DNA of 64,000 bases from Ceratodon purpureus (Eukaryota; Streptophyta; Bryopsida; Pseudoditrichales; Ditrichaceae): positions 2,552,776-2,616,775 of the forward strand of contig CM026428.1 in assembly GCA_014871385.1 (NCBI GenBank), in the 5' to 3' direction. The translations under genes were made by a program, and so were the position numbers. Position 1 is the first letter of the stretch, and each line of letters opens with the position of its first letter. Positions 1 through 21,973 of this stretch are shown piece by piece. Below the pieces are notes generated by a model that saw only the letters and a program-made list of their open reading frames with translations, ran no database searches and was not told the DNA's origin.

Positions 1-1932
1 CCTGGGAATTCGGAGTTCACTCCGCCGATGTTCGCGAGCACCGAGGAGCTTCGCGCCATGAACAACGTCGTCGATTCCGTTGCGGAGGATGAGGCTGGGG
101 GGCAGCTCGAAAGTGCGTTCAATCCCCTGTTTTTGGGTATGCCAGACGATGGAGCGAAGTATTATGCAAATTTCGCTTCTGGCGGTACTACTGACGTCGG
201 CAGCGGCCAGGAGTATGACGTCTTCCTCAAACAGAAGTCCATGGAAATTGCCTGCGCGCCAGCCTCTTTCTCGAGGGTGCTGCTCTTCCCCCATTTCTAA
301 CTCACCCGTCAATTTCTGTCCCAATTTTTGCAAACTTTACAATCTTTGGTGTAACTCGTACTAGTTCGCATCAAGATTTGGGAAATCGCAAGGAGTTGTC
401 GTAATCTGTTGACGCTTAGCTAACGAAACAAGGATGGGGGATGATGGAAACAGGCAGATGGCGATGGAACAAACAGGGGACTGTCAGTTGGAGCACCTCC
501 ACTGACGGCATTTGGGATCGAATCATCTGGTACTTTCCGCCGCTTCAATATCTGAATGTTAATTAGCCACCGTAGTACAGATTTCCGCCTAAAAGTTTTC
601 CCCTGTTCTTGAGTGTGGCGATTGCTCAAAGGTTTCGATTTCTCGCGTCCTATTCGTTTGTTTTGTTCTTTGAACGGTTTGAGCGTCATCCTTACACCAG
701 GCACCTTCGTCATGGCAGGCGCGAGCGCTTTACCAAGCGTTGGGCAGTGTGCATCGGGGGGTACTCCACCGCAGTATCCGAAATCCGACGGGGACGCATC
801 GGGGAAATCCAGACCGATTACTAGCAGCTCCGAAGTTTCGGACGATGATGAGCAAGATTTGCTGAATCAGAACTTACCACGCAGTGAGCTTAAGCGAGTA
901 AAGAGGTACACATTTTAATTTTGATTGTAATGATTGATGCGGTAAAATTCAGGTCTTGCGGTGAAATTCAGGAAAATTTCGACATGTGAGTTGGCTGCTG
1001 TAGATCCAAGTTTCAAGAGCGTTTCATATTAGAGTTGGTGGTACTGTACCTCCTGCTGACTTTGATAATTTTGTGTGTGTTGCAGAATGCTTTCAAATCG
1101 TGAATCTGCTAGACGGTCGCGCAGACGAAAACAGGCACACTTGAGCGACCTGGAAGTACAGGTCAGAATGCGATGCCACTTGATCGTAGAATTTTACGGC
1201 GTCCGCTTGAAGGCCTTAGAGTGGTATATATTATAGACGTCCATTTTTTATGCTGGGTTCATTATTGAAGGCTTGTAATTAGTGGCAATAATATTTAATT
1301 GTACTTGCAATTTGTGAACCTGACTAAGGAGAGTTTATGGTTGTTTGTTGCTGAAGGTTTCGCATTTGAGAAACGAAAATACCACGCTCATACAAAGATT
1401 GCAAGAAATCAGTCACATGCACAAAGAAGCGGCTATTGACAACCGCATTCTCAAGGCGGACGTTGAGGCTTTGCGTGCCAAGGTAAGCGTTTACCAGATT
1501 ATCAATAAATTTGTTAACACCAATTATTTGAAACTCTAATTTTATTCCTCATATGAAACTTGGGCTTAGGCTGACAGTCTTGGTGGTGACTGAGTGCAGG
1601 TGAAAATGGCGGAAGGTATGATGGCCCAGCGAGGCCAGCCGGGGATGGCAGATTTCAATCCGGAGTCAAGTTTCAGCTTTATGACGCCCTATATGACGAA
1701 TGACATGGACAGATCGTTCTCGCAGCCTTTGGGGCACAGCTCCATGCTCCGGCAGGATCTGCAACAGGGCAACCATGGGGGTAAGACGGGGTGCACACCG
1801 CCCAATATGCAACGAGGTGCCAGTGTTGAGCATCTGCAGAAGCGTATTCGAAGTGGGGGTTCTTGCAATGCGCCGGCCTGGGGTGGTTGGGAAATGGACC
1901 GACCTGCCATGGTTCAGGAGCACGGTGTCTGA
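1..1932 (+). CDS. Group C bZIP transcription factor (Opaque2/bZIP63-like), 5' end outside window
   Basis: A DNA-binding regulator of the plant group C bZIP type, which binds ACGT-core elements as dimers, often with group S bZIPs, in energy and stress signalling. Exons seen: 1-276 (frame open at base 1, so the start lies upstream), about 748-905 (a start at 775 also keeps phase), 1086-1161, 1357-1482 and 1600-1932 (stop TGA). The basic region on the third exon reads [19 protein letters not shown], carrying the diagnostic N-x7-R. A leucine zipper with heptads follows and runs on through [19 protein letters not shown], typical of the long group C zipper. The first exon ends in a block like [11 protein letters not shown], matching the conserved group C N-terminal motif, and the C-terminus has the familiar EHLQKRIR. 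Donors and acceptors are canonical. The family call is firm; the junction between the first two exons is the least certain. Confidence 0.88.
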
Positions 1933-2963: not shown

Positions 2964-5900
2964 TCATGTGGAATTTCTAACCTCGTGTAATCCTCGCACC
3001 AGACTTGTCACTCCACTCGATTCGTCGTGATAAGCTTTCAAGAATCCGCTCTCATCTTCTTCCAAAACCTGGCTTGTACCAACAAATCCTGTATACAGAT
3101 AATCGCTAGATGATCTTGCATTAAGCTTGTCGCCGTAGGCAATAAGAGTGGACACCAACCCCAGGGAAGCTGGAAGCTCGGTGACGGACGTGGTTCCCCA
3201 CATTGGCAGGCCTTGCAGGGTTGTCAGCGCTCCCATCGCCTGAACGCTGCCACAATCCCGCAACATGAATCGCCGAAGGCCTTTGAGGTTTCTGATGGAA
3301 CTCGGCAGCTTCTGCAAATTCTTGCACCCCTTCATCTCCAACCTTCGAAGTCCTGATAACTGGCCTATGGACCTTGGGAGCTTTCTGATGGAACACCTAT
3401 CAATGTGTACATCCTCCAACCTTGTGAGTCCACCCAAAGTCTTAGGCAACCTCTTCAAGTTGCCACAGCGCCTCAGCCTTAGGTCAAGGAGCAGTTTGAG
3501 ATCACAGATTGAGTTCGGGAGGCATTGCAGCCTCTCACAAGTAATCTCCAACTCTGTAAGACCCATCAAGAGTCCGAAGGATTCCGGAAGCTCAGTGACA
3601 GTGCTATCCTTTAATAAAAGCCATTTCAGGGATTTGAGGGCCCCATAAGCGAGGAGAGATCCGAATCCGCCACACTTGCTTAAATCTAAGTAATATAATC
3701 GTGACCAGGCTTCCCCGATGTGGCCATCTGAGAACGTCTGGCATTCTGCACTGGCCTGTAGCCGTAGCAATTGAAGACTGGAGCAAAGCCCAATGGAAGG
3801 TGGAAGCTTCACGAGCGAGGTGCAACCCCGTACAGAAAGTGTTTTCAGATTTGAGAGGGCACCTATGCTGTCTGGGATAGCTGTGAGGCTTGTACATCCA
3901 CTTAGGAAGAGAGATTGAAGTTGTTGGAGTTGTCCAACGGATTCCGGAAGCTTCTTCAACCCAGTGCATCCTTCCAAGTCCATACAGTGTACTCCTGATG
4001 CTTGTCCTATGGACTCTGGCAACCCTTTCAAGCTGCTACAACCGCTTAGGTCAAGATAGTGAAGTTTTTTGAGTTGTCCAATGGATTTTGGGAGGATTTT
4101 TAGTTTTTTGCAATCTCCAAGATTTAGTTCCTGAAGTTGTGAGGATTGTCCAATGAAGTTTGGTAGCCTTGTGATGGATGTGCATTCTTGCAAGTTGAGT
4201 TGAAGTAGGTTGGGAAAGCCCTGTCACATGAATAATCATTTGTTACACACAATTAAGTAAAGCTCGTAAGGTTCAAGAAATTCTTCATTTTAATAATAAA
4301 CTAGAAAACACGTCCTAGATATGAAGATATTATTTTTAAGAAAATTGAAATATATCATAATCAAGATATCACTTTGTATTTCAAACTTCTCAACGGATTT
4401 TAAATTTATCAAATTATGACCAAATTGTCAAATCATTCAATCTGAGTTAAGATACGAGACAATGGCAGTAGGTTGTGTAAGGTTTAGGCATGGGAGCACC
4501 ACACTTGTGATGCGGAATGAACAGAGGGTTGGGCATGTGAAAGTGGGAGGTGAAGGAACTGGATCGCTGAGATGAGACGTTAGCTGCTCCGTATTTTCTG
4601 GTGAGGGGCCTTGGGAGTTAGACTCAGATCTAGAGCACACAGCAGGCAAGTGCGCTGGGCCTTGTCCGCCCCCTGTCGAACCTCTAGTCTGAGTTAGCTT
4701 CGCTGCAGAGTTTGCTTGCTGGAGGAAGGATAGTGTTGGTTAGGGGCACTGCTACGACACGCTTTAGATCTATATGTTCTACTGCAGAGCCGAGCAAGGT
4801 GCTGAGGAAAAACTGAGCGCTGGGTCCTGTGTTGGAGAGTGCCGCTCTCGAGCTCTGCAGACATAGCATAAAGGTTATTTTGTGGCGCAGCAGTAACATT
4901 TAGCACTCAAGGAAGCAGCGCTGCGACTAACTTCCCGAGGATTCCTGATCCAGAAACTCCCACTCTCATCATTGCCACATTACGCCGCAAGGAGCTCCGT
5001 AAGCTCCTGGACACTCTTACTTCCTATGTCAATCTCTATCTCTTCATTTTCTGCATCTTCACATATTCATTAGTACATCTCAGCTATTATTTTCCAGTCC
5101 TGCTTTCTTGCTATACACCACAGTCTGTAAGAGAGTCACCTGTGAACGCCTCCCTAGCTCTCTCGAGTACTTGTGTAAGATCCGAAATTCTCGGATCTCG
5201 CTCCCACCTTAGCTTCGAGACACATCTGCACAAGGATACCGATAAGGAGTGCACACCACACCGCACAAACTGCTACTCTCACAGATCAGATAATTTCGGA
5301 TCTCAACGTTCCATTACCACATCTAGGATACCATGCTCAGGTGACTTGCAAGCAATCTGCTGGCAAGCACCCTCTCCCGCAGACTTTGTAGCACTCAGTC
5401 CTGCCACTCTCCAAGTGAGTCTTTCACACACCACCGCAAGTAGTTGCAGACACAAGGCTACTCTCAACACTCGACACGAAGACATTCAACACCTGGAGTA
5501 CGTTGGAGAACAACCCACAGTCTGTACCAGCGAAGGCTTCGAAGACCTCTGCTTCAAATCGCATCGACACCTCCCAGCTCTGCATCAGGACCAGCAATCT
5601 CAAGAAGCATCAAGGCAGCCGAAGTATTTCCAAAGTCACCATCAAGGGAGCCTTCAGCAACGTACCTCAGGGAGCCGAAGGATTTCCAAGTCGTCATCAA
5701 TTGCAGACCACGACACTGTCACTGCACAGCTACTGAGAGAGCACACCGAACAGCCTGCCAAGAGCAAGTACATCCTGCTGATTGGAAACTGCCGAAGCTG
5801 CCGAAAGCTCCCGAAGTTGCATCTGCTGAAGCTGTATTTACCAGCACTCTCACATCAAGCAAGGCTGTTCACCGACCAGCACCCCAAAGGTTTACCCCAC

Positions 5901-8900
5901 CCCGTCAAAGGAACCGCAGCCCAAGCACCTTACAAGAACTGTCCACGAAACACCTTGGGAAGAACAGCGATTTCTTGTGAGTTCTTACTGAAGTTGCGAT
6001 CCAAATGTGCAAACAATAGCCACAGCTCCGACCTGCAAGGACAATCATTACAAACCCACGGCAGCAAATCAGGTAAGTTGCTGAACTTAGCACCTTGCCT
6101 TCTACAATTCCTTCACCTTACTTCATACTGTACTTCAAGGAACCCTAAGTTGACGCACCACAGAAAATCGGCCATAAAAAATCACATTATTCAGGGTTTA
6201 GTTTACACACCCCCCCTGTATGCATGCTTTAATCGCCCTCTTGCATGCTTGTGCCGTCACCTTGCCTACTTGAGTCGGCCCTCTGGCCACAGAGTCGTCC
6301 TCTTGTCTGTTTGCCTGGAGGGATGGGTCAGGCCGAGACAATTGTCTCGCAGCACTAGCTGCCACACATGCCAACGGCACAACCAAAAGCACAAGACAAA
6401 TACAGCGCACAAGAAACGTAACTGGAGAACCTCACCGAGCCATAGCAGTTGGAGCACCCCTGCGTTTGCAATCCCAACCGAGAGAGCAGTGTGGAGCAAT
6501 CACCGTAAAAGGAGTACTCACCGAACCTGCAAAGTCATCATCGCCAATCCAAAGCTGAGCGGCTGGAGAACAGTCAAGTCTCTGCTACATCCAATTTCGC
6601 TGCAACGTTGCCCACCATACCAACTGCTGCAACTTCGACATCGCCCATCAAACCAACTGCTGCGACCCTGCACACCGTCAGGTAAGTTTTCTCAACTTCA
6701 CCTTCTCAATTCACACACACACCCTTTAAACCACAATTCATTGTGCACACACTCCTCTTGTCTCTTTCACCTCCGGTACACAGTTTATAGACAACTTTGC
6801 ACACTAACTAGAAATAAAACACTCACAAGAAAACCTAAACACATTATAACAAATCAAGTTCAAAAAACAACGATATTACAACTTGTTGGCTTGCAAAGTG
6901 GGGAGGGTTGGGGTACAAAGTACAAGGAAATCGTCAAGCAGTCAGGAGGCGCCTTAACCTCAATCAAAAGCTTTCAGCCGGAGACGCATGACAGCACAAC
7001 GCATAGCAGCAGAGAAGACCATTACCAAAAATCAAAGGTGAGCCATCAATCGCAGCTGAGTACGCTGCCAGAATCGCTGCGACGTTGCTCATCACACCAG
7101 TTGCTACAACTTCGACGTCACTCATTAAACCAACTGCTACGACCCTTCACATCGCTGCTCAAGCTCCGATGCTGTTTATCATACCAGCACACCAAACCAG
7201 CACTTCGAACCAGCTGTCGACCGCATCGTCAAATTAACTGCACTTCAACGCCAGGTAAGTTTCGAAACCCTTGTCCAATTAAATTTCAAATTCCGCAATC
7301 AATCTTAGTAGCTCAGGTTCATAGCCATCACTCAATCTCGCATTTTTGCCCTAAAAATATTTTAAGCAGCAACATCACACTAACATGCATCCCAAGCACT
7401 CTCCTTAGCACCGTTTTTCAGGGTTTTGAAGCTGCACCTCAACCCAGCGCAACGTCGAGTGAATCGGCATCACTTGCAGCTGCTCCAAAAACATCAACGT
7501 TTACATTGCGGGAATTAGCAAGCAGCCCTCCGGCGCCGCACATCTCCAGAAGCTTTCAGCCGGAGCTGAACCCAACTGGTGAGCACCCACCTGGCGATGC
7601 CGAGAGCAGATGCGAACAAAGCCCCGCAGCAAAATCAGTAGCTGTTCACCAATTCAAACCTGCGAGTTGCAACATACAGGTAAGTCCCCTTACCCTTCAT
7701 CATACAAAAAATCTGCTTGCACCATTAAACCTAAAATCTCTTAACTCCTACATCAATTCTGCTCATATCCTTGTCGTTTTCTCCTGTACGTTCAAGGCTA
7801 AGACAGAATACCCAACTCCCCCTAAGAACATCTTAAATAGAAAAAACGCACTAACCAACATTTCCAGCATTTCCTTTAGTATCGTCTCTCAGGGTTTTGA
7901 AGCAGTGCCTGAGCAATCCCGAGCAGCAAAAACCAAGGCGCACGGAGAGTGCCGTCGATTCCTTCCCGACGAAAAGCTGCCGCGAACGGAGGCCTGTTCC
8001 CGAAACCTTGCTTCCGATTCCTGCTACGAGCAGACTCCTACTCTCGGACTCCCGCTTCGACGTTGGAATTGGCAGCGAGAAGCCTGTCTACACCGCCTCC
8101 CTGCCTCTCTCACCGCAGCCAAGACGGCGTCCCGCCGAGTATACATCACTGAAGCCGAAATGGAGAAAGCGAGGGCAGAACACGAAAGAATCTCGGCGTA
8201 TGTGGCCTGCTTCGGCCAGGACGGCCAGGAGGATACCGAGATGATGAATACGCCGCCATCGCAGAAGTCTCAAGAGTCCACAGCTCAGAGTCTCAAGAGG
8301 CTCCTTGCCGAAAAAGCCCGAGAGAAGAGTCTCGCCAGCCCCAGCCAGAGCAAAAGAACGCGAGAGACAGTGGAGGCCACAACAATTACTGCGTCGCCAC
8401 AAACCCCCCCCACCAAGACTGCCGCACCGGAACCAACACACGTCAGTGAACCAGAGTCGAACCAGCGGCCAAGGTTTTGGCTAGGCTTTGAGACCATGGA
8501 GCAGTTGGCAGTTGAACGAGGAGAAGAGGAGCTATTCAGTGATGAGACTATTGAAGACAGAGTGCTGCGTGGAATTTCAAGAGATGAAGCAGAAGAAATG
8601 GCACAGGTAAGTGCAGCCTTCCCCCGTGTACCTCAGTTGTTGTATCCATCTGAGAGACCTGATGGAGTTTTGGGGCAGCACTACAACATAACCCAGGTAC
8701 CCTTTGACATTTCCACAGACCCTATCTCCCACCTCTCTCTTGATTTCCATGTTGCTATCCATTTTCAAATTCCCAAGGCCCCACTCTTGCACAACTACAT
8801 CAAAGACATTGTAAAAAAGAGGTTAGACTATATGCACATTCCCTTAGGCACAAAACTCATTGAGCCCATCTCAATAATGTGTATGAGTGTGAAACGGGGG

Positions 8901-11900
8901 GGAGAAAAAGGAGTTTGGGCTGGGATTATCAAACTCCATCTCCTCCACCCCGAAATTGATGGCATTGCAATGTTGAAGGGTCTTAGACCCTTCATTCTTC
9001 AACTTAACCCTTTTTCAAAAGTTGGTACTTTAGGCAAAGTTTGTAAGTCCTACCATGGTATTGTAAGGAGCAATTCTCTCTCCATCAAAATTACTAGTGA
9101 GACCATAGTTGGTGTCTCTTCACATGCTCTTTTTCTTGATGTGCTAGAGAGTAGTTTTAGGAGAAAGCACGATTTTGAAATTGTTGATGTGCAAAAGAGT
9201 ACTAACCAAAGTCATGCCTATATTGTAGCCCCCTCACCATCCCAAGCCAAGAAAATTCAGGATTTCCAAGTCTCCACCTTCCATGAGATTTTGGATGGCC
9301 AAGTGAAGAAAGGCCCATACATCACCTTGGAGAAAAAACAAAGGAAAGATGCCCTCACCCTTACCTTCTATAACCTTCCGATTTTGATGAGCATTGATGA
9401 CACAACCTTAGCTATTTGCAATGAATTAGGTACAAAAAATGTTATCTCCATTTGGTTTCACAAATCAAATGGAAGCAAACATAATGGGAGTGCAAATGTT
9501 GAATGTTTGAATCCCTTTGTTTACCGAAAGTATGTTGGGAAAGAAATCAAGATTGGGGCATATCATGTGGAAATTACCCCACACCGTCGAAGTTTAGAAG
9601 GTAGTGAAAAACCTTCCAAGGAGCTTTTGGTCAAGTTTGGGTTTGAAGATACTAATACTTGTTTGGTTCACACCATGGAAGCTATCCAAAATCAACCACA
9701 AGGGGAGACAAGTGCCACCAAAAACGAGGTTCTTACCATCATGAAGGAGGTAATTGAAGAAGGCAACAAGAAACTCAAGCTTGAGTTGCACAAGGACATG
9801 AAGGTGCTCAAAGATGATATTGTCAAAGAAGCTCATCTCTATGCGGATGAAATCAATGACAAACTCAAGAGACAAATGCTTGACATCCAAAGTACATTGA
9901 CTTTGGCACTCACCGGAATGCAACAATTTATTGGATTGGTAAATCCAAACCTTTTACTCAAGGATAAGTCAAATGTGGATTGACCACAAATCGCCGAGGT
10001 AAAAAGTATTTACCACAATACTACTCTAGATACGTATCTGTATTTAGACCCAGTTTTATACACATAGAATATACTAGAAGAAATATAGAATATTACCGTA
10101 TTATACACAGTATTTTACAATGTTTTGAATACTTTTTGAAATACAAATACGATTACTATACTCCATACTTGTACAAATACAATCCACAACCAAAATACTA
10201 CCTTCATCCAAAAACCTACTTTCATCCAAAACTTAGATTGCATCCAATACTTGGAGTTCATCCAAAACTTAGATTGCATCCAATACTTGGAGTTCATCCA
10301 AAATTCAAATCTCATCCAAAATTCAAATCTCATCCAAAACTCAAACTTCATCCAAAAATTAGATTTCATCCAAAATTCAGATTTCATCCAAAATCCAGAT
10401 TCCATCCAAAATTCAGATTCCATCCAAAATCCAGATTCCATCCAAAATCCAGATCCCATCCAAAATTCAGATTCCATCCAAAATTCAGATTTCATCCAAA
10501 TTTCAAACTTCATCTAAAAATCAGATTTCATCCAAATTTCAGATTTCACCCAAAATTCAGATTTTATTCAAAATCAAAGGCCCATTCAAAATTCAAATAT
10601 CATCCAAAATTCAAACTTCATTCAAAAATAAAATTTAAACCAAAAACTACACTTAGATTCCATACACAACACGTATACAACCTTAGTACAAAAAATCATC
10701 ACCAACCACCACATTATATCAAATCCAACCATAAAATGGCCTCGGCCTACCGACCTCGCCTAAATACAAAATACAAATATCAATTCATAAACAAATTAAT
10801 ACCCAATACCATAACAAATCATACTCTAATAAATACAAATACATATATATATTCTTCAAACATACAAGTAGAAAATACAATATCCGCCATACATTCAAAA
10901 CCAAAAATTCATCCAAAATTAAAAATTCATCCTAAATTAAAAACTCTACCAAAATTCCAAATTTATCCAAAATTCCAAATTTATCCAAAACTCCAAATCT
11001 ACCCAAAATCCCAAATCTCTCCAAAATCCAAAAAACACCAAAACTTCAGATTTCATCCAAATCTTATAAGACATAGTAGTCATCCAAACTATAAAATCCA
11101 CCAAAAAATCAAATTCTATTTAAAAAATATAACTCACTCCAAACAAAGAATTATCCCACAATATCAATTTCACATAATAGTTGATATTATACAAAAACAT
11201 AACCTTATTAACAAACACTCTACTACCATGGTCTACCAACCCCAAATGAAAATAGACAAAACCTATCAACATCGTGAGAGAATAAAATACGAAAAGAATA
11301 CAAAACAACACATTTACAATTGGTTTACTAACTCAATTACAAACCATTCCTCTGAACCCTCTACAACCTCGCACTATCTACCTTTAAATCTAGAACAAAC
11401 AATACCTGCATTACCTAATCTATTCAACACAGCAAAATTCATAACAACAAAATATTACAAACTAAATTATAAAAACCCTAAAACTAGTATTTACCAAGGA
11501 TACTACTTTGTAAACAAATTAGCCCTACTTCAATGTGGGGACATTGAATCAAACCCAGGGCCAATGCCCAACATACTTAGAACTCATCCAGCCGAACATA
11601 AGAAAAGAGCTAGAAGATACTTTATCCCTAGCACAATTAAATTCCGCCCAAAATACCAACATATTGCAAAATCATTTGCTCCAATTTTAATAACTAACCA
11701 CCATCTACACCATCAAGCAATCATTGAATTTCCACACCTACATCAATACATACAAATACAAATACAATCTCCACTACCTCACATACTATATGCATTAATC
11801 GTTACCATACACCCATCAATAAATACATGTAATGATATATTAGCTCATCCCCGCATTCACCACTTCAATGATATTTGGACTAATACAGTAATGATTAAAC

Positions 11901-14900
11901 TAGCCAACCTAAATAACCCTCCGGAAAGACACATCCTCACTCAACATCCTTATATCAAATTCATTGAAATGAACCAAGACCTAATATCCCCAAAAAACTC
12001 AATTCATGATGAACTTTACAAATTTATCCATAACCAAGATACACCACCAACACCTACCATACTCCAAAGAAAATTTCCTTTCTTACCAAATAAATTAATC
12101 ACTGAAGCTCTACGTTGTTTCGAAAGTCTAAATGAATACTCACATCCACCACCCCTTCCAAACATCCCAACACCTCCCCCGAGAATAAATATTAACACTA
12201 ATGACGAAACAAAAATAATAACTTGGAATGCATCTTCGCTTAATACAGCTCTACCAAACCTACAAAACCTCGTATACAACTCTTCAAGGAATACGGCAAT
12301 TATAAACATCCAAGAAACAAAACTCACAGCAACCAAATCCACTAAATGGATACAAAATCTATTTCCTGAGTATAAACTCATTTTTAATAACACACATGCC
12401 CTCACAAGATGCATGCAACAAAGAATGCCCTACACCCCCGGAAGAGGAGGCTTACTTACACTTATACACAATAAATATGCTTTCCCTGGAAATATTACCA
12501 AAATCCCTACACCAGCAAACATTTCCCCATATCTACAAATAATAAAAATAAACAACCATCCGTTATTACCATGGTTAATCATACATTTATACATGCCGAC
12601 ACACCTAGAAGACATCCGCCTCATCCCCCACATTCAAACTACAATCACAAACCAAATAAATGCACACCCTAATCATACATACATCTTGTGTGGAGACTTC
12701 AATCGTGATATAGCACTAAACGGAAGACAAAATCACAACACCAACACCCCACCACAAGAAGAAGATACTCAATGGAAAAACTTTACAAATTCACTAAATC
12801 TAGAATACATCCCAACAAACACAACATTCACGAGACAAGGTGGTTACAACTACACATCAACTAGTCTCATAGATGGTTTCTACATAAAATCCCTAGATAA
12901 CACTAGACTTACCTCCACGACAAATACAAACCTGAATCTAAACTCAGATCACTACCCAGTCACCTTACACATTCCACAAAACCTATTGATAGCCAGACCA
13001 CCGGCCCCCACCAATACCCCAACAATTAGAATCTTAAATCCAATACCTCCAGAAAACTTAGAAAAATTTAATATTGAATTTTTTGAAAAAAATTCTATAC
13101 AAATAAATGAATTAACCAGACTTCTAGAAAATAATGACCATCTTACCCCCGATTTATGGCAAGAAGCTTGCGCATCCTTAGACAAAATCGTAGAAAAAAT
13201 CTCAGAAACCATTGAAAAAACATGTAACGCACCCCCACTACCACAACTCACAAATAGATCAAGACAACAAGGCGGCTTTTTACCTCGAAAACTAGCCAAA
13301 GAATGGAAAAAACACCTTGCCACATACCATCTTATTAGAAAAACTATATATATTGCAAAAAACAACCCCCAATGGCAAACACACCCCATATTGAACGAAA
13401 TACGTAGCCACCAATATGTACAAATACCACATCCACCAGCAACAGACTCTATACCAAACGAATGGATCGGTGACATAGCTAATATCGCTAAAACTGCTAA
13501 CAAAGAAGCCAGGAAAATAACCACAAAATACACTAAAGATTGCATCCACAAAGCTGTATCAAAATATCGACAACTATATGAAAAAAGCCCCAAAAAAGTA
13601 AATCGAAAAGTCTTCAAAAACTCTGAAACGTCACCTCTTGACTCTATAATGGATAGACAAAACCACATCTTAACTAGTCCGGAAGATATTGCTCAAGAAA
13701 TTTACATCCAACAATCCATTAGTAACCGGCCAACAGTCCCTACATGTCACTATCAAACTACACATCCTCCACAATGCACATGTAGCGTTAGACAATATCC
13801 ATGGCATGACTTGGACGGATTCACAATTGATCAACGCGGAGAACCACAAATCCCCCTACACACATATTTTGATCAAGAAACTTACGATTTATGCCTCAAA
13901 AACCTAGGAAATAACAAAGCCCCAGGCCCAGACAAAATACCTAACTCTATTTTGAAAAATATGCCCCCACGATTCCACAAACTACTATTTCTATTTTTTA
14001 AACACTGCTACAAACAAAAACAAATACCTGCATCATGGAAAACCAGTCTAACTGTCTTATTATATAAAAAAGGCGAACCATCCCAACTTACAAACCATAG
14101 ACCTATCGCTTTAGCAAACACCATATACAAACTCTTTACTAGCACATTAACCTTTATCCTTTCCACATACGGTGAAAAACATCAAATTCTGCATGACAAC
14201 CAAGAAGGATTCCGAGCAGAAAGAGGAACATCGAGACAACTTCAACTACTTATTGCAGCCTTAGAAGATGCAAGATTTACAAATCAAGATATATATATCC
14301 TCTACATTGACTTCAAAAATGCTTTTGGCTCCATTGACCATGCGAGACTCTTAGCCATAATGAAAGATCTCGGATACCCAACCGATGCTATAAACTTGGT
14401 AGGAAATATATACTCACAATCCTCTACTATATTTTCTGGAGAACATTTTGGTAAAACTCTACCTATTCCCATCCAAAGAGGAACAATACAAGGGGATACT
14501 CTTAGTCCATATCTATTTATAATATTCTTAGAACCACTTCTTCGATGGTTACAACAAGGTGACAATGGATATACCTTTGGTACATCCAACGTTACAATCT
14601 CATCCGCAGCATATGCTGATGATTTAGCAGCTATTGCAAACAAATTAGCATCACTACAAATACAACTAAATAAATTAGACAAATTCTGCGAATGGGCTGG
14701 AATGGATCTTGGTATACCTAAATGTGCAGTGACCGGATGCCCAAATAAATCAAAAATGAACCCCATAGCATTCAAAGCACAGATCCAAGCCACCAATATA
14801 AACTACAGAAACCAACCAATACCAGTTTTGGACCAACATGATCCTTATACGTACCTTGGAATAAACCTAGCACCATCACTTAAATGGAAAACACAAATAA

Positions 14901-17900
14901 ACACCACCACGGCTAAAGTCATCAAACAATGTCAAGCCTTAGTGGCTTGTCCAGCCACTATGAAACAAAAAATCAACATGGCCGATACAGTCATACGTGC
15001 TGGGATCGCATATAGCTTCTACGCAGTACCATACTCTATGCCAGCCATTAGAAAACTTGACAAAAAGATCATAGCACTCCACAAAACAATATGTGGACTA
15101 CCAAAAAGTACATCTAATATTGCTACACAACTCCCACACGATCTATTCGGAATGGAAGCCTTTTCGTTAAAAAATGCCTATCTACGATGTATTGGAGAAC
15201 AATTACAAAATGCTCTTAATGACAAAGGCAGACTCGGTAAAATCTACTTTGGCTTAATACAATTCATACTTGCAAAATTTGGAGGCTCCGAAGAAATAGA
15301 CCGCATCAAATATCAAGATTGTGTGAGATCCCCTATCACTAGAACATTGTTTTTACTCAAACATGAAGCCGGAGTCCACCTTAAGAGCACTATAGAAAAT
15401 TTTCTATTAAATCCATCCCCACTCGAAACCGCATGGATGCAAGAAGCACAACACCTACATGGCCTAAACCCCAAAACTTCTCTCAAACTACTACAAAAAC
15501 TACTATTACATAATATAATAAACTTAGAACAAATAACCATGCCTAACGGGACCACCCTAATGAACCCAGACGAATATAAAATATACCACTCCAATCCCAC
15601 AAAACTCATAAAAAGTGCGCTAAATATTGCCAATCAATTATTTTGTAAACCCACTTGCCATCAAAGATGCCAAATACCATGTCGATTCCGATTCCACTCC
15701 CCTCCAAGAACTCTAAAAAATGATTACATATTATTAAACCACAACATTCTACCACAACAATTGAACCCCCCAATACACCCCCCCAACCCTCCTATTCCCG
15801 AACGTCCTCCTCCTCCCAACAATATGCTTAAATATCCAAGACAATTTCCCATACACACAATACTAAGCCACAAACAAAATAAAATCAAAGATCCAAATGG
15901 GATAAACTACAAAGATACAACATATTTATGCCAATGGACCACGCCAAATAATAACACATACAACAAATGGCGTAATCAATGCGAACTTTTCCCGTGGAGC
16001 GACATTAACACTTGTCTCCACAATACTGAATTACTTACTCAATACTACACTAAACAACAACATAAACATTTCTTAGACACCATCGAAAAGCACTTCTCCA
16101 TAGAACAACAAAAAGATACAAGATACGTTACTCCGGCCACAATTATCCCATTAGCACATGTCTCCATTAATGAATGCAACCCAGAAAATGACATCGAAAC
16201 AGACTCAAACATTATCCAAACACAACATGACGTCGCACACATATACGAAGATAATGGCCGGCACCTCATCACCATCCCGAAAACTAGACTACTATGGCTA
16301 TGGAAACAATATCAACATGCAAAAAATATCCCACACGGCCTTGAGCCATCCATCCAAGCATTTGAAACTGAAATTGTCTGGCTATATCAAAGATATAAAT
16401 ATCGTATCCCAAAAAATGATCCACTTAAATGTGCTCAATATACAATACCAACTGAAATACTAGATTTTCTAATATCAACATTCAACATCCACCAATCTTA
16501 CTTTTCATCACCAGTTACATGCCCTACACAATTTACCCAATTCTACTCACCATTTTCACGAGATATAATATTTGGCTCCCTAGGGAAAGCATTTGATCAC
16601 AAATGGAAAGGAATTGGCTACGCTCACCCCCACAATGAAACCGACTTACAACAAGCCATTCATTGGGCCCGCCTTGCGGCAAAAAATGACCCAAACAGTA
16701 TCACCATACTCATCTCTCCCGATACTAACTGGTACCAAAACCCCAACCCCTACACTGGTCCATTCCCAGACACACATATTATTGCCCATTTTTCTGCAGA
16801 CACCATTACATATGAAGAACCAACAATTCCCCCCGAACTTAAACTCGAAAGAAAAGAACTTTCTACGCTCCGAATATTCTGTATCCATCACCAAAACAAC
16901 AACATCGGTACACACGAGCAAATAAATCAACTCGTTCACACAACTAACAATCTCCAAATATTACAAATTCACACACAAATTGCATCTCCGACTCCCTTAA
17001 ACACTCATGTCAATCCCAGTAAAAAATGGTCCAAATCATATTACCCAAACACCCCCGCAAATAACTCAACACCTATCCCACAACTACCAAATTACCAAAC
17101 AAATCTACCACTAAAATTCCACCCCCAATTCAGTTATTACACAGATGGATCATTCAAACCCCCAAAAGAAATGGGCAACGGTAAATGGAGAAGAGAAAAA
17201 GCCGGATACGGTATTTACAGCCCCAAAGGCCTCAATATCCCCAAAAGACTCCATGGACACCAAAATATACTCCGTGCCGAAATGATGGCAGTACACAAAA
17301 CACTCAGAATTATTAACACACAATTCCCTAACGAACCAGCATACATATTTACCGACTGTCTAAATGTACTATACTTACTTAATACACAAATAAAACATCC
17401 CACACTACATAATAGTCACCCCGATCAAACCACACTTGCCTCCATAGTAGAACTACTCCAACAAAGAACACAACCAATTTCACTATACAAAGTTAGAGCA
17501 CACATCAACATTGACGGTAACGAAGAGGCAGATTATTTAGCAAAGCAAGGTCTAAAACTAGCACACAGAAAAGCCCTACACTCATACGAACATGCCCATG
17601 CCACTCCTTCTACTTCCAAAAAGATAACTGGCCTTCAAGAAACGATGTTCCAGACAAAGGACCAGTTAGAACTCTAGAAAAACAAATCAAAAAATATGAC
17701 AGAGAAAACAATCTAGAAAACATGGCCATACAAACCCCCAACATTTGCAAATGGACGGAAAATGTAGACATAGACAATGTACTTTCTAACGAATTTTGGG
17801 AAAACCCAGCCATCACTGACAAACAAAAATCATGCCTCATAAAATTCCGTACGGGAACTTACATGGGCCAAGCTAGAAAACAAATGTTTTTCGGAAGAGA

Positions 17901-20900
17901 AAGATTTCCATCCATCACATGTCCCATTTGCAATTCACGCGAACCGGATACATGGCTACATGTATTACTCACATGCCAACAACAACATATACACTCCCTC
18001 CGAGTCAAAAGACACAACAAAGCTGTATGGGAAATTAGAAAACTACTAGTCTCATCCGAAAAATCTCGTTGTTTTATTCTCATGAATGCGGGCACCTTCA
18101 ATGATAAACCCCCAGAAAATACCGTTCCCAACTGGTTACTTCCATGCACATGTGGCACTCAAAGATGTCATTGTAACTCTAGATTTAGACCAGACATCCT
18201 TTGCGTTAAAGGTTTGCCGTACCAAAGCGACCCCCCTACAGAAATAAACCCCAATCTTACCATACAATTCATTGAATTCACATACTGCAATGATAGATTC
18301 TCACCAGAAACATTTGTAGCTAAAACCAACAAATACAACCCACTAATTGCCAGTCTTACCGCTAGAGGATGGAAAGTCGACCCCCTCATTGTCATCACAG
18401 CAGGCGCTAGAGCTACCACACACATTCCTTCAATGAAACTACTTGCAGACAATTTCAAAATACCATGGCTTACCATCAAAAACACCTTTAAAAACATAAA
18501 CACTATTGCCATACAATATGCCATGTCTATACTTCTCCACAAAAGAAGAATAGAAAACCACCAACCATTACCCGAAACATTAGACCCCCCATAGTCAAAG
18601 AAAACCCCTAAATATAATCAAAAAAAAAAAAAAAAAAAAAAAAAAATTTAGTAGCTAGAGCTACTTTATTTGAATTGATAGCATGCGGGTGTCAAGTCTC
18701 TTGTCAACTTCTCACAGAGGGGGCTGTTGGTTGGCTCAACTCATCTACTGCCTGCAATTGCTCGCTCAGCAGTACCAAGCCACTTCATCCCCCACATCCA
18801 CTCAAACGAGTCCATCAGGGTTTGAACCCGGACCAGATTAATGAGACAAACGCTCACCTCCAACCAACAAATGAGCTCGTGGCTTGGTGTCCAAAATTGA
18901 AATAAAATGAATCTTGAGTTGATAATCACTACTATTACTGGCTACTTGGTACTAGTTACTGGTTACTGGTTACTTTGTGACTAAAGTGTCTACTCTCGAA
19001 AGGGGGGAGTAGATCTTTACTTCCATACCTTTGTCCTGTGGGCATTGGCTTGGGGGTGGATCGAACAGACACTTAATTCACTTCGGTCTCCTCCGGAGAC
19101 CGTAGTTTCTCTCTCTACGAGACAATGATTAAGAAATCAAGGAATATAATCATTCTATATTAATTTAGAATTTTAATGGCTAAAAGATTAGATGAAGGAT
19201 TTATTTTTTGTTTTTTTTAAATTGAAGATTAAAATATTGTAGTTGATCTTATATTCTTTGTTTTTTCACATGAACTGATCCTTTGGCAAAAACTCAAAAA
19301 TGTAGTCAACCAAATAAGGATTAAATTATATTAGAATCATACTAATTTAAATAGAAAGCTTAAAAAATTAATTCTAAAAGTTTAAAGAAAATATAATAAG
19401 GTATTATTATTTTATTTTTATCAAAATTTAAAACCATTAATAAACAAGTATGCATTATGTATCGTAACTTTTATATATTGAATTTTGAACATTATACACT
19501 TCTACTATTTATCAACAACTAATTGGAACTTATAATCATGTAAAACCAAGGTTTTGAAAAAACATACCTTCAACATGCCTTGTGACTCAGTCCATAGAGA
19601 AGCCAAATTGGTACTCATGGAGAAGTCAAGTGATGTCAAATAAGATACGTCTAGTCCAAGTGGTATACAATCCAATACAATCCCTCTCCACCTTAGCCAT
19701 CGTATTTTGGTTGAAATACATCTAAAGTCTCCATCCACCACGCATCCATCCGGCAATTCAAGAAAATGCAAGTTGGGCATACTTGCAAAGTCCTCTACTT
19801 CAAACTTTCGCTTCCGACTTCCTACCAAACTTAAAGCTAAGGTCTTGATTGTTCCCTACATTACCCAAAATGCATATTTACAATTATAAGAAAAATAAAG
19901 TAAAATATATACAATATACAAAATATATGAATGATCTTTTCATCATAACAAATTCTTTTACGCACTTGATCCATTTAATTAAACTCAACAACATAATTCT
20001 TTATTTCTAAATAATTATTTTTTAATTCGCACACATAATTTAATGAGGAATGAAAATAACAAGATAGAATCAAAGATTTAGTAACTTACTTGCTTCTTCA
20101 TGATTGATGCCTCTGCACCAGCACTGCCATTTACAAAGTATTTCTTAGCCTTTTTTCCTATTTCTTGTCCCAAGTCTATCAAGAGATCGTGCACCTTAAA
20201 AGTTGTACGACCGCAATCAACACTGACCAAGTTCTTGTTGGTAAGGCTTCGCAATGATGTACGAGGTGTTTGCACACCACCGCACAATGTGCAATCCTGA
20301 CAACTGCTCCAATATGCTAAAGCCTCCTCCACCCCACGATTGCAAAATAAACAAGCTATATCCAGAAACATGTGCTTCTCTGGTTTTGAAAGATGATCAT
20401 AGCTCCATTTCAACACACCCTTCACATCTGGATTTTGCCTCAATGCATGCACTGCCTCCAACCAGATGGCCTCCGTGTCTTCATCTGATCTCACATCGAA
20501 CAAGCTCGATCCAATAACCTTGAGCGCAAGAGGCAATCCACCACATCCTTTCACAACATCCTTGGCGACACCTTTAAACTCTTCTAGAGCTTCATCAGCT
20601 TGGAAAGCATGCCAGTTGAAGAGCATATTGGACTCCTCCACACCCAACGTGGAAACATCATACAAACAATGCTCCAGTTTTGTTCGACCAGCCACATTGT
20701 TGAATACACTCCGATCACGAGACGTGACGATGATGCGGCTCCCCGGATGGAGATCACTTACGAAAGGAACAAGCGCTTCAAACTGGTTAAGTTTAATATA
20801 AACATTATCCACCACAATCAACACTGGCCCAACAGATGCAATCTTCCGAAACCAGGAGCTGTAGTCATTTGATGTGCTCGTCTGGACACGGAGGAGGTCC

Positions 20901-21973
20901 CACAGCAACTGCTTCTGCAGCTCCCTTACCCATGTCGATCTAACCTCCACACCCGAGGTCGATGAATCTCGGTGAATCTCCAGAAACGTCATGTTCAGGA
21001 AGTTCTTCTCCGCCACGAAGTGGTTGTAGATTTCCCGTGCAAGCGTTGACTTGCCCACTCCGCCCATTCCCACAAGGCCAAGAATTCCTGTGCCAGCACC
21101 CATGTCTTCCGTCATCTGAATGCATGCCTGAGCTCGGCGCTGGAGTCCCACTCTGTAAGGCTCCACGTCCACAGGGTCGTTGGACGGTAAGAGACGAGCT
21201 ACTTGGTTCACCACTTCCCGCTTCAGCTTCGCTTCATCACTGCACATGCAAGGCGGGTACAACGTTGGACGAGCAGGATCGAATGAGAGCATAGCAGGGC
21301 GTTCCAGGAACCAATGTTCTTTTATTGAGCATAGAATACCGCAATTTGGATTCGCATTCTGTGTGGTGACATGGATTCAGATTTCTACAAATTGATGTAA
21401 TGGTTGGGGTAGAACAAACCACGCACAACCATGCTGTGTGCCGTTGTAATTATCACAGAGACTTGTAATTAGTGGAGAAACTCACCGTTTGAAATCAGCC
21501 AAGCAGAAGCCTGTGATGTCTGCAAGTGCTCGGAGGGCATCCGTCCACTCTTGCAGTTTCTTCTGGGTTCGTCCCTTCGACTTGTGTTTGAGGAATGCCT
21601 CTGCGAACGACCCATTCTCCACCCACCGCAGGCCCACGGGCTCTACATCGTAGAACACAGGAATCACCGGTTTGCCGCTTCTCATCATGGCCACGAGCTC
21701 GTTCAGGCAGTACTTGGACTCCGCGTATCTTTTGGACACAACAGCGACGTGAACTTTGGCAGCATCGAGAGCCTGGTCGATGGATTTGAGAGCGGGGTTG
21801 CCCTTCATCAGCGACCGGGCGTCCAGAAATGGACGAAACCCTGCACATCGGAGTGCGTCCTCCAGATGCGCAACGAACGTGGCCTTCACATCGGGCCCGC
21901 GGTGGTTGAGAAACACGTCGAAATTCTCCGTGACCGCGCCACTCGTGCTGGCTTCGCAATCGTTCATGATCAT
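2964..21973 (-). CDS. TIR-NB-ARC-LRR (TNL) immune receptor gene, split by a 15.3-kb intron
   Basis: Intracellular immune receptor. Coding exons on the minus strand: 21973-21486 (TIR), 21239-20090 (NB-ARC), 19855-19568 (linker/first LRR) and 4220-2964 (LRR, stop TGA). All four join in phase to give about 1060 residues. The TIR exon shows FDVFLNHRGPDVK and the NADase-type glutamate in KYCLNELV. The NB-ARC exon has the P-loop GMGGVGKSTLA, kinase-2 VLIVVDNV, SRIIVTSRDRS and GGLPLALKVIG; the MHD position reads VHD. The last exon is about 15 LRRs of the SIGQLxxLxxLxLxxCxxL type. Donors and acceptors are canonical (GTGAGT, GTAAGT and GTATG donors). TIRs of this kind hydrolyse NAD+ on activation. Intron 3 (19567-4221) contains a complete LINE in antisense orientation, yet no exon is damaged. 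Whether the transcript still splices across it is unknown. Confidence 0.85.
5142..8159 (+). repeat. LINE 5' leader: degenerate tandem units in an open frame without ATG
   Basis: This stretch stays open in the ORF1 frame for about 1000 codons with no in-frame ATG. It contains related units. The block at about 6600-6680 recurs at about 7078-7155 with clear similarity (a shared CAACTGCTGCAACTTCGAC-like core). GCTTTCAGCCGGAG occurs near 6970 and 7553. CAGGGTTTTGAAGC occurs near 7420 and 7888. CAGGTAAG donor-like sequences occur near 6068, 6679, 7252, 7677 and 8606. It could be a promoter-bearing repeated 5' UTR, as in L1 monomers, a decayed N-terminal extension of ORF1, or both. If translated it would be Ser/His/Gln-rich with no domain I recognise. 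Confidence 0.6.
8160..9983 (+). CDS. LINE ORF1: gag-like protein with RRM-like fold and C-terminal coiled coil
   Basis: Nucleic-acid-binding ORF1 protein, expected to coat the element RNA. The start at 8160 is the first in-frame ATG (GAAATGG context) in a frame that is open from at least 5142. About 607 residues: an acidic/polar N-terminus (residues 1-170), a long middle domain, then a segment near residues 400-480 beginning LTLTFYNLP and ending HVEITPHR that reads like an RRM (an RNP2-like strand, later SANVECLN as an RNP1-like strand). A coiled coil follows (about residues 525-590: NEVLTIMKEVIEEGNKKLK and on). RRM plus coiled coil is the usual build of LINE ORF1 proteins. It ends GTG GAT TGA, overlapping the ORF2 frame by 4 nt. 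The RRM call is from pattern, not a profile search. Confidence 0.7.
   Translation: MEKARAEHERISAYVACFGQDGQEDTEMMNTPPSQKSQESTAQSLKRLLAEKAREKSLASPSQSKRTRETVEATTITASPQTPPTKTAAPEPTHVSEPESNQRPRFWLGFETMEQLAVERGEEELFSDETIEDRVLRGISRDEAEEMAQVSAAFPRVPQLLYPSERPDGVLGQHYNITQVPFDISTDPISHLSLDFHVAIHFQIPKAPLLHNYIKDIVKKRLDYMHIPLGTKLIEPISIMCMSVKRGGEKGVWAGIIKLHLLHPEIDGIAMLKGLRPFILQLNPFSKVGTLGKVCKSYHGIVRSNSLSIKITSETIVGVSSHALFLDVLESSFRRKHDFEIVDVQKSTNQSHAYIVAPSPSQAKKIQDFQVSTFHEILDGQVKKGPYITLEKKQRKDALTLTFYNLPILMSIDDTTLAICNELGTKNVISIWFHKSNGSKHNGSANVECLNPFVYRKYVGKEIKIGAYHVEITPHRRSLEGSEKPSKELLVKFGFEDTNTCLVHTMEAIQNQPQGETSATKNEVLTIMKEVIEEGNKKLKLELHKDMKVLKDDIVKEAHLYADEINDKLKRQMLDIQSTLTLALTGMQQFIGLVNPNLLLKDKSNVD
9980..17677 (+). 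CDS. LINE ORF2 polyprotein: basic repeat - 2A - APE - RT - PCIF1-like - RNase H
   Basis: Retrotransposition enzyme, 2565 codons. The frame begins at TTG (9980), overlapping the ORF1 stop in TTGA. The first in-frame ATG is at 10736 (AAAATGG). Landmarks: HPK-type repeats 10200-10640; a second Lys/Pro block 10895-11060; 2A motif 11531-11563; exonuclease-endonuclease-phosphatase domain about 12208-12975 (TWNASS, IQETKL, CGDFNRD, SLIDGF, NSDHYPV, all the expected APE residues); reverse transcriptase about 13870-14760 (NKAPGPDKIP, IDFKNAFGSID, GDTLSPYLF, YADD 14612-14623); PCIF1-like segment about 16495-16790; RNase H about 17130-17570 (YTDGS, RAEMMAV, FTDCLN, GNEEADYLA, giving D-E-D-D). All catalytic residues of APE, RT and RNase H appear present. 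The expected C-terminal CCHC module is missing from this frame and continues in the -1 frame. Confidence 0.85.
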   Translation: MTTNRRGKKYLPQYYSRYVSVFRPSFIHIEYTRRNIEYYRIIHSILQCFEYFLKYKYDYYTPYLYKYNPQPKYYLHPKTYFHPKLRLHPILGVHPKLRLHPILGVHPKFKSHPKFKSHPKLKLHPKIRFHPKFRFHPKSRFHPKFRFHPKSRFHPKSRSHPKFRFHPKFRFHPNFKLHLKIRFHPNFRFHPKFRFYSKSKAHSKFKYHPKFKLHSKIKFKPKTTLRFHTQHVYNLSTKNHHQPPHYIKSNHKMASAYRPRLNTKYKYQFINKLIPNTITNHTLINTNTYIYSSNIQVENTISAIHSKPKIHPKLKIHPKLKTLPKFQIYPKFQIYPKLQIYPKSQISPKSKKHQNFRFHPNLIRHSSHPNYKIHQKIKFYLKNITHSKQRIIPQYQFHIIVDIIQKHNLINKHSTTMVYQPQMKIDKTYQHRERIKYEKNTKQHIYNWFTNSITNHSSEPSTTSHYLPLNLEQTIPALPNLFNTAKFITTKYYKLNYKNPKTSIYQGYYFVNKLALLQCGDIESNPGPMPNILRTHPAEHKKRARRYFIPSTIKFRPKYQHIAKSFAPILITNHHLHHQAIIEFPHLHQYIQIQIQSPLPHILYALIVTIHPSINTCNDILAHPRIHHFNDIWTNTVMIKLANLNNPPERHILTQHPYIKFIEMNQDLISPKNSIHDELYKFIHNQDTPPTPTILQRKFPFLPNKLITEALRCFESLNEYSHPPPLPNIPTPPPRININTNDETKIITWNASSLNTALPNLQNLVYNSSRNTAIINIQETKLTATKSTKWIQNLFPEYKLIFNNTHALTRCMQQRMPYTPGRGGLLTLIHNKYAFPGNITKIPTPANISPYLQIIKINNHPLLPWLIIHLYMPTHLEDIRLIPHIQTTITNQINAHPNHTYILCGDFNRDIALNGRQNHNTNTPPQEEDTQWKNFTNSLNLEYIPTNTTFTRQGGYNYTSTSLIDGFYIKSLDNTRLTSTTNTNLNLNSDHYPVTLHIPQNLLIARPPAPTNTPTIRILNPIPPENLEKFNIEFFEKNSIQINELTRLLENNDHLTPDLWQEACASLDKIVEKISETIEKTCNAPPLPQLTNRSRQQGGFLPRKLAKEWKKHLATYHLIRKTIYIAKNNPQWQTHPILNEIRSHQYVQIPHPPATDSIPNEWIGDIANIAKTANKEARKITTKYTKDCIHKAVSKYRQLYEKSPKKVNRKVFKNSETSPLDSIMDRQNHILTSPEDIAQEIYIQQSISNRPTVPTCHYQTTHPPQCTCSVRQYPWHDLDGFTIDQRGEPQIPLHTYFDQETYDLCLKNLGNNKAPGPDKIPNSILKNMPPRFHKLLFLFFKHCYKQKQIPASWKTSLTVLLYKKGEPSQLTNHRPIALANTIYKLFTSTLTFILSTYGEKHQILHDNQEGFRAERGTSRQLQLLIAALEDARFTNQDIYILYIDFKNAFGSIDHARLLAIMKDLGYPTDAINLVGNIYSQSSTIFSGEHFGKTLPIPIQRGTIQGDTLSPYLFIIFLEPLLRWLQQGDNGYTFGTSNVTISSAAYADDLAAIANKLASLQIQLNKLDKFCEWAGMDLGIPKCAVTGCPNKSKMNPIAFKAQIQATNINYRNQPIPVLDQHDPYTYLGINLAPSLKWKTQINTTTAKVIKQCQALVACPATMKQKINMADTVIRAGIAYSFYAVPYSMPAIRKLDKKIIALHKTICGLPKSTSNIATQLPHDLFGMEAFSLKNAYLRCIGEQLQNALNDKGRLGKIYFGLIQFILAKFGGSEEIDRIKYQDCVRSPITRTLFLLKHEAGVHLKSTIENFLLNPSPLETAWMQEAQHLHGLNPKTSLKLLQKLLLHNIINLEQITMPNGTTLMNPDEYKIYHSNPTKLIKSALNIANQLFCKPTCHQRCQIPCRFRFHSPPRTLKNDYILLNHNILPQQLNPPIHPPNPPIPERPPPPNNMLKYPRQFPIHTILSHKQNKIKDPNGINYKDTTYLCQWTTPNNNTYNKWRNQCELFPWSDINTCLHNTELLTQYYTKQQHKHFLDTIEKHFSIEQQKDTRYVTPATIIPLAHVSINECNPENDIETDSNIIQTQHDVAHIYEDNGRHLITIPKTRLLWLWKQYQHAKNIPHGLEPSIQAFETEIVWLYQRYKYRIPKNDPLKCAQYTIPTEILDFLISTFNIHQSYFSSPVTCPTQFTQFYSPFSRDIIFGSLGKAFDHKWKGIGYAHPHNETDLQQAIHWARLAAKNDPNSITILISPDTNWYQNPNPYTGPFPDTHIIAHFSADTITYEEPTIPPELKLERKELSTLRIFCIHHQNNNIGTHEQINQLVHTTNNLQILQIHTQIASPTPLNTHVNPSKKWSKSYYPNTPANNSTPIPQLPNYQTNLPLKFHPQFSYYTDGSFKPPKEMGNGKWRREKAGYGIYSPKGLNIPKRLHGHQNILRAEMMAVHKTLRIINTQFPNEPAYIFTDCLNVLYLLNTQIKHPTLHNSHPDQTTLASIVELLQQRTQPISLYKVRAHINIDGNEEADYLAKQGLKLAHRKALHSYEHAHATPSTSKKITGLQETMFQTKDQLEL
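10200..10640 (+). repeat. 18-bp minisatellite encoding a basic HPK hexapeptide repeat
   Basis: About 25 imperfect copies of an 18-bp unit of the type CATCCAAAATTCAGATTT. In the ORF2 frame it reads HPKFRF and variants (HPKSRF, HPKFKS, HPKLRL), alternating basic and aromatic residues. The unit lacks stops in at least two other frames, so long shadow ORFs occur here. A looser block of the same kind (HPKLKI, YPKFQI) lies at 10895-11060. Confidence 0.9.
11531..11563 (+). other. 2A ribosome-skipping motif in LINE ORF2
   Basis: The codons read QCGDIESNPGP, matching the 2A consensus D(V/I)ExNPG|P exactly. They are preceded by a Leu-rich stretch (KLALLQ), as in working 2A peptides. Skipping would occur between G (residue 527 from base 9980) and P (528), releasing the basic repeat domain from the APE-RT protein. 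2A sequences are known near the N-terminus of some trypanosome and animal LINE polyproteins. Confidence 0.85.
16495..16790 (+). other. PCIF1-like methyltransferase-type domain (degenerate) within ORF2
   Basis: Residues about 2172-2270 of ORF2 run in the order seen in PCIF1/CAPAM N6-adenine methyltransferases: an FSSPVTC block, FYSPFSRDIIFGS, a Gly-rich turn, the position of the catalytic NPPF tetrad, a helix, then a hydrophobic strand ending near a Trp (ITILISPDTNWY). Here the tetrad reads AHPH, so catalysis is unlikely. The match is by eye and moderate. An unrelated Rossmann-like linker is possible. Confidence 0.4.
17722..18594 (+). CDS. LINE C-terminal ORF (-1 frame): CCHC finger and restriction-like endonuclease-like domain
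   Basis: 290 codons from the first ATG, but this frame is open from 17521, overlapping the ORF2 end by about 157 nt. It is therefore probably the C-terminus of the ORF2 protein, reached by a -1 shift. The C-A5-G run at 17617-17623 is the likeliest crossing point, either a slip site or a single-base indel. The sequence has C-x2-C-x9-H-x4-C (17920-17976), then RPDIL near 18187 and IEFTYCND near 18268, followed by an AKxxKYxxLIxxLxxxGW helix and VITAGA. CCHC followed by (K/R)PD...(D/E) is the signature order of the restriction-like endonuclease of R2 and Dualen elements. The spacing between PD and E (about 26 residues) is longer than in R2, so activity is unproven. Confidence 0.6.
   Translation: MAIQTPNICKWTENVDIDNVLSNEFWENPAITDKQKSCLIKFRTGTYMGQARKQMFFGRERFPSITCPICNSREPDTWLHVLLTCQQQHIHSLRVKRHNKAVWEIRKLLVSSEKSRCFILMNAGTFNDKPPENTVPNWLLPCTCGTQRCHCNSRFRPDILCVKGLPYQSDPPTEINPNLTIQFIEFTYCNDRFSPETFVAKTNKYNPLIASLTARGWKVDPLIVITAGARATTHIPSMKLLADNFKIPWLTIKNTFKNINTIAIQYAMSILLHKRRIENHQPLPETLDPP
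18620..18646 (+). other. LINE poly(A) tail
   Basis: Uninterrupted run of 27 A, 25 nt after the last LINE stop codon. It marks the 3' terminus and plus-strand orientation of the insertion. Confidence 0.9.
18647..18895 (-). mobile_element. tRNA-derived SINE-like sequence
   Basis: Read on the minus strand from about 18890, the sequence is tRNA-like. It has an A-box-like GAGCTCATTTGTTGGTTGGAGG, an anticodon-like hairpin, and the B-box arm GGTCCGGGTTCAAACCC (about 18816-18834). An unrelated body follows and ends in the palindrome GTAGCTCTAGCTAC, then the T run shared with the LINE tail. This is the SINE build. It lies in TNL intron 3 on the same strand as the TNL gene. Family not identified; its exact head is uncertain. 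Confidence 0.5.
18896..19567. other. Remainder of TNL intron 3
   Basis: A non-coding stretch with short TTACTGG repeats near 18945-18975 and a perfect 8-bp stem at 19084-19102 (CGGTCTCC TCC GGAGACCG). AT-rich intron sequence then runs up to the exon 3 donor. No gene seen. Confidence 0.55.

Follow-up and report, generated by a model that had tools for sequence, protein, structure and literature searches.

The window, that is, the whole 64,000-nucleotide stretch of the moss genome analysed here, holds an element that is a LINE, in which an APE-type endonuclease and a reverse transcriptase (RT) share one open reading frame (ORF2; 9980-17677, +, 2565 aa) with the peptide QCGDIESNPGP. The features of the element are as follows.

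8160..9983, +, ORF1 counted from its first ATG, 607 aa; the frame is stop-free from 4872
9968..9984, +, ORF1/ORF2 junction motif GTCAAA-N6-TTGAC, found in 16 of 26 copies
9968..11401, +, K/H/P-rich, fast-evolving, stop-free N-terminal extension of ORF2 (open frame, dN/dS)
10220..10645, +, 18-bp tandem repeat with HPKFRF-like units, further units at 10892-11045 (repeat scan)
11402..11518, +, conserved approach to the 2A (IPALPNLFNT...YYFVNK), dN/dS 0.11-0.21 over codons -45..-8 across the deep split
11519..11563, +, putative StopGo/2A element LALLQCGDIESNPGP (motif, copy comparison, synonymous/nonsynonymous counts, and the class rule in the available part of PMC12846837)
11558-11560 (Gly) and 11561-11563 (Pro), +, predicted Gly/Pro break, from the 2A core
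12218..12961, +, APE-type endonuclease (PF03372, aa 747-925; PF14529, aa 866-994)
14066..14869, +, reverse transcriptase (RVT_1, E 8.8e-28)
16343..16660, +, PCIF1-like domain with HPHN in the place of NPPF (PF12237 profile)
17132..17554, +, RNase H (E 1.7e-12)
17722..18594, +, C-terminal part, out of frame in the window copy and in frame in the copies L025 and L023
18620..18646, +, poly(A) of 27 nt, taken as the 3' end of the insertion (repeat scan)

The Pfam families found in ORF2, namely Exo_endo_phos_2, RVT_1, PCIF1_WW, and RNase_H, all lie downstream of the 2A. The endonuclease is over the cut-off with PF14529 (E 1.2e-6) and below it with PF03372 (E 7e-5), and the RT has its best solved-structure match in R2 (E 1.4e-29), followed by human L1 (1.4e-15), as a ranking of hits and not a tree. 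The window copy is damaged at its far end, where the frame is lost after RNase H, whereas L025 and L023 read on. When 18641-18720 was compared with 4001-9000 for a TSD, no repeat beginning at the poly(A) end was found. ORF1 matched no Pfam family at E<=0.1. Its frame is also stop-free for the 3288 nt before the first ATG (4872-8159), against 38 and 43 stops in the other forward frames; the codon-position composition of this stretch is flat, it contains four AGGTAAGT donor-like sites, and pieces matching it occur at C11:5445420 and C12:16324552 in frames of 1380 and 1381 aa.

Positions 11531-11563 (+) translate as QCGDIESNPGP in frame with ORF2, and open coding sequence in the same frame flanks the 2A on both sides, which bears out the sequence-only reading that the peptide fits the 2A consensus. 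DIESNPGP conforms to the StopGo core, defined in the accessible text of PMC12846837 as (D/G/C/N)(V/I)ExNPGP, and the degenerate core has a single match in the window and none in 100 dinucleotide shuffles. The Leu-rich segment said to precede the motif is indeed present as NKLALLQCG (11513-11539). Moreover, ALLQCG-DIESNPGP combines a Leu-rich hexamer ending in (A/S/C)G with D at p12 and S at p15, a class assignment made by eye. According to the part of PMC12846837 available, the Leu-rich motifs 2 and 6 of viral StopGo sequences (LLLLSG-like) end in (A/S/C)G and are found alongside D at p12 together with S at p15; activity in reticulocyte lysate is recorded for one motif-6 example, ALLQCG itself not being named there as assayed. 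The likeness to this class consists of ALLQCG together with p12 D and p15 S; the bearer of the motif differs, being a virus in the one case and a retrotransposon in the other.

A tblastn search with window positions 11000-13000 yielded 621 candidates, of which 66 places, counting the window, were scored, and we read 26 copies, consisting of the window and 25 of the 65 other places (the 20 best and the 5 weakest of the table). These copies fall into three groups, hereafter designated subfamilies, with 92-98%, 83-84%, and 67-70% DNA identity to the window. Loss of NPGP in sibling copies, named in the sequence-only reading among the findings that would speak against a 2A, was not observed; NPGP is present in 26 of 26 copies and DIExNPGP in 25, the exception being L031, in which E is changed to G (DIGTNPGP) and the frame around the site spans 88 codons. 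The hexamer before the core is ALLQCG in 24 of the 26 copies, with GLLQCG and ALLQYG occurring once each, and both the Gly at p11 and the Met following the 2A Pro are invariant (26/26).

Across the deep split, the 15 codons of LALLQCGDIESNPGP show, in four pairs of copies, 9-11 synonymous changes over about 11 synonymous sites versus 0-1 nonsynonymous changes, in a small number of codons and in pairs that share one split and are therefore non-independent. The sole nonsynonymous change, S to T, falls on the free position x. The dN/dS ratio is 0.34-0.98 at codons -300..-151 and 0.35-0.54 at -150..-46 (seven pairs), and it is 0.04-0.08 in the 27 codons after the 2A (four deep-split pairs), 0.16-0.23 at codons +36..120, and about 0.045 at +221..390 (deep-split pairs). 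With the lower ratio over codons -45..-8, this profile indicates that constraint on the peptide starts about 45 codons before the break, is complete except for x at the 2A, and continues into the enzyme, although with 15 codons the 2A is statistically inseparable from the conserved enzyme part that follows it. Between the window and L025, the endonuclease part is close to identical, with dS about 0.06 at codons +221..390, and dS is about 0.8 before the 2A, a contrast that may reflect mosaic elements with swapped 5' halves.

In the 362-Mb genome, D[I/V/M]ExNPGP has 163 matches (91 on the + and 72 on the - strand), whereas the backward pattern has 0 and the NAGP variant of the core has one match and one backward match. 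A Gly directly precedes the core in 151 of the 163 matches, against about 10 expected at a chance of 1/16 (binomial P ~3e-165, which is overstated since related copies were treated as independent). Among the 100 cores listed of the 163, at least 54 nucleotide codings of the octapeptide are used, with T, S, L, P, I, Q, or V at x. Among the same 100 cores, 56 lie within 200 nt of the place expected before an endonuclease relative (52 of them to the base), the paired relatives being 59-100% identical to L032; a further 16 are followed, 4-10 kb on, by a PCIF1 match (one of them doubtful, at 9.9 kb), and for another 6 an endonuclease match stands about 1.03 kb downstream. The remaining 22, for which no endonuclease or PCIF1 match was assigned, may belong to other LINE families, represent copies that are decayed or went unscored, or include a few matches by chance.

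The same association is seen when counted from the enzyme side. Of 60 relatives in the listed part of the genome with a match extending to the site, judged by coordinates, 52 show an intact core; the other 8 are 70-79% identical to the query, and none of them lies in a frame longer than 803 aa. Among the matches listed, only 48 of the 78 PCIF1 places follow an intact core, and 43 of the 48 core-to-PCIF1 distances are 4747-4804 nt. The relatives and PCIF1 places that lack such a core weigh against a working 2A, as does the E-to-G change in L031. Likewise, for frames of at least 2000 aa in the listed part of the genome, the core lies 3.5-11 kb upstream in 14 of 14 that bear PCIF1 and 1023-1035 nt upstream in 13 of 15 that bear the endonuclease. 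Two endonuclease matches without a 2A core, C4:6445566-6445871 and C4:7407741-7408046, stand in frames of 2195 aa and probably belong to another LINE type. Scans of viral and of bacterial/archaeal contigs, seeded by 6, 2, and 2 short peptide patterns and including no plant genomes, confirmed no relative.

The enzyme is preceded by a long extension. From the 2A back to the previous stop, the window has 523 stop-free codons, with 29 and 26 stops in the other two + frames, and the corresponding stretch is stop-free over 393-565 codons in 10 measured copies of the 26 (those with long, well-placed frames), with 26-48 stops in the other + frames and 28-36 expected from base composition; across all 26 copies, the upstream stop-free run varies from 49 to 877 codons. 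Part of this frame would be kept open by the 18-bp repeat, whose length is a multiple of three. The sequence-only reading had placed the 2A between a basic repeat domain and an APE-RT enzyme. This stands insofar as repeats lie upstream and Exo_endo_phos_2, RVT_1, and RNase_H downstream, and fails insofar as the repeats are not family-wide: HPK-type units occur in the window-like and second subfamilies, and L029 and L032 of the third subfamily carry other repeats at that place, so a basic repeat domain conserved throughout the family was rejected.

At the 5' end, the ORF2 frame opens at 9968, in -1 relative to ORF1, whose stop codon is 9981-9983. The motif GTCAAA-N6-TTGAC at this junction, unlike its flanks, is shared by all three subfamilies (16/26 copies). 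In 8 of 12 copies, 16 or 25 nt separate the opening of the ORF2 frame from the end of the ORF1 stop codon that follows it; the distance is 70 nt in L012 and 100 nt in L016, and L011 and L029 fall outside the ORF1 comparison. No XXXYYYZ heptamer was found at the 13 junctions examined, except for A-runs in L016 and L029. In 12 copies, no ATG before the 2A is common to all three subfamilies. An ATG in MASxYRPR is common to the window-like copies and L029/L032, and one in TTM(V/A)YQ to the first two groups, and with each present in two of three subfamilies, an internal start before the 2A gains somewhat in plausibility. We favour entry into ORF2 at the ORF1 stop, and entry by an internal start before the 2A may occur. 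The junction resembles the termination-coupled restart of SART1, as described in the accessible portion of PMC5972666, in that the stop of one frame marks the opening of the next and a junction motif is shared; it differs in having no AUG, with UUGA in the window and UAG-NN-UUG in the other subfamilies.

Collectively, the motif, its context, and its constraint suggest that in this moss APE-type LINE the segment very probably works as a StopGo/2A element. Ribosomes would enter the ORF2 frame by a -1 frameshift or a coupled restart at the ORF1 stop, or by an internal start before the 2A, and would translate the basic, rapidly evolving N-terminal extension in part or in full. On reaching ...LALLQCGDIESNPG^P, they would be kept from joining Gly to Pro by the nascent chain lying in the exit tunnel; the upstream product would be released and translation would resume at Pro-Met-Pro-Asn-Ile-Leu. 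The predicted outcome is two separate proteins, one N-terminal and the other an EN-RT-(PCIF1-like)-RNase H enzyme.

Other readings of the locus were weighed against this one. The invariant Met after the Pro leaves room for an internal start, and the enzyme might thus begin at the ATG just after the 2A (PMPNIL...), with NPGP incidental or a relic; invariance of that ATG in 26 of 26 copies, and the lack of an upstream ATG common to all three subfamilies, fit such a start. We nevertheless consider it improbable, since it leaves unexplained the long open frame upstream, the conservation of LALLQCGDIExNPGP amid synonymous change, and the recurrence of the core with Gly at p11. A 2A of weak or partial activity, which would yield mostly a fused ORF2 protein or a ribosome pause, is in keeping with the varying activities of published 2As (PMC12846837, as far as its available text goes), but a core unchanged in 25 of 26 copies and a p11 Gly in 26 of 26 fit a strong site, and we regard weak activity as unlikely.

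It might also be argued that the DNA or RNA is what is conserved, as a promoter, RNA structure, or IRES, and that the peptide is a by-product. The stretch is indeed far better kept than the sequence before it, but across the deep split the 15 codons have taken 9-11 synonymous changes at about 11 synonymous sites, and at least 54 octapeptide codings are used among the 100 places listed, which makes this very improbable; conservation of DNA rather than of peptide was rejected on these two counts. Low complexity of the ORF before the 2A would make a chance match easier to conceive, yet the shuffles gave 0 in 100 and the genome controls 0 and 1 versus 163 for the core; a chance origin, to which we give virtually no credence, was rejected on these shuffle and whole-genome control counts.

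PCIF1 is a cap m6Am methyltransferase, and NPPF is the catalytic motif of PCIF1-type methyltransferases. The likeness of the moss domain to PCIF1 (PF12237) consists of a profile match over the cut-off in the window (E 4.9e-10) and in L032 (4.8e-12), and the family has 150 scored matches over the cut-off in the genome; the solved structures of PCIF1 match the domain weakly by sequence (E 0.078 and 0.52). The moss domain, which lies within a LINE ORF2 and is flanked there by RT and RNase H, was detected by tblastn in 24 of the 26 copies and not in L018 or L030. It differs from PCIF1 in the catalytic motif: the window copy has HPHN instead of NPPF, and HPHN is aligned at that place in 23 of the 24 domain-bearing copies, the remaining one, L014, having HLHN. 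Over the 41 residues around HPHN, there are 11 synonymous and 0 nonsynonymous changes between the window and L032, and 13 synonymous and 2 nonsynonymous between L025 and L029. On these comparisons, the domain is most likely one that is under selection but catalytically altered, and it is probably not a working m6A enzyme; we would guess that it binds RNA caps or adenosine.

The 2A of L1Tc from Trypanosoma cruzi was reportedly described by Heras in 2006, and 2A in APE-type elements of multicellular organisms is said to have been reported by Odon in 2013. Consistent with the statement in the sequence-only reading that 2A is known in trypanosome and some animal LINEs, the available parts of PMC4981915, PMC5972666, and PMC11512398 describe non-LTR elements, from trypanosomes and sea urchin among other species, that encode D(V/I)ExNPGP in frame. 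The moss LINE shares with these known cases (L1Tc, sea urchin, APE-type) a core that is in frame; it is set apart by its moss host, the long fast-evolving extension before the 2A, and an ORF that also encodes a PCIF1-like domain and RNase H, a contrast drawn from the moss features alone. In plants, StopGo constructs function (PMC12846837, PMC4981915, and PMC12371167, in the text accessible) and are in wide use in biotechnology (PMC12371167, likewise in part). A 2026 survey of nearly 10,000 viral StopGo sequences gives, in its available part, no evidence of natural use by plant viruses (PMC12846837), and a non-exhaustive search of the literature, available in part, found no report of a land-plant element with a 2A. 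The moss 2A-LINE thus looks new, in that the device itself is known, the kind of host is new, and the surroundings are unusual.

A broader reading, which we consider possible if rather doubtful, is that the moss LINE superfamily encodes a polyprotein with two recoding events, in which ribosomes would pass from ORF1 into the stop-free lead of ORF2 by slip or restart and the 2A would free an enzyme carrying a repurposed, catalytically altered, perhaps cap- or adenosine-binding PCIF1-like domain; this would be the first natural StopGo system established in land plants. If real, a native StopGo would imply that the plant's own genome confronts its ribosomes with such sequences, and its dozens of natural variants within a single moss genome would be a ready source of plant 2As. 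With this element, the way in which a LINE balances the amounts of its proteins also becomes directly testable, and it may be asked why a LINE keeps a PCIF1-like domain. As for its genomic setting, LRR, NB-ARC, and TIR exons flank the LINE on the minus strand (3006-4217, 20078-21289, and 21482-22021, -), as if it sat in an intron of what would be one TIR-NBS-LRR gene.
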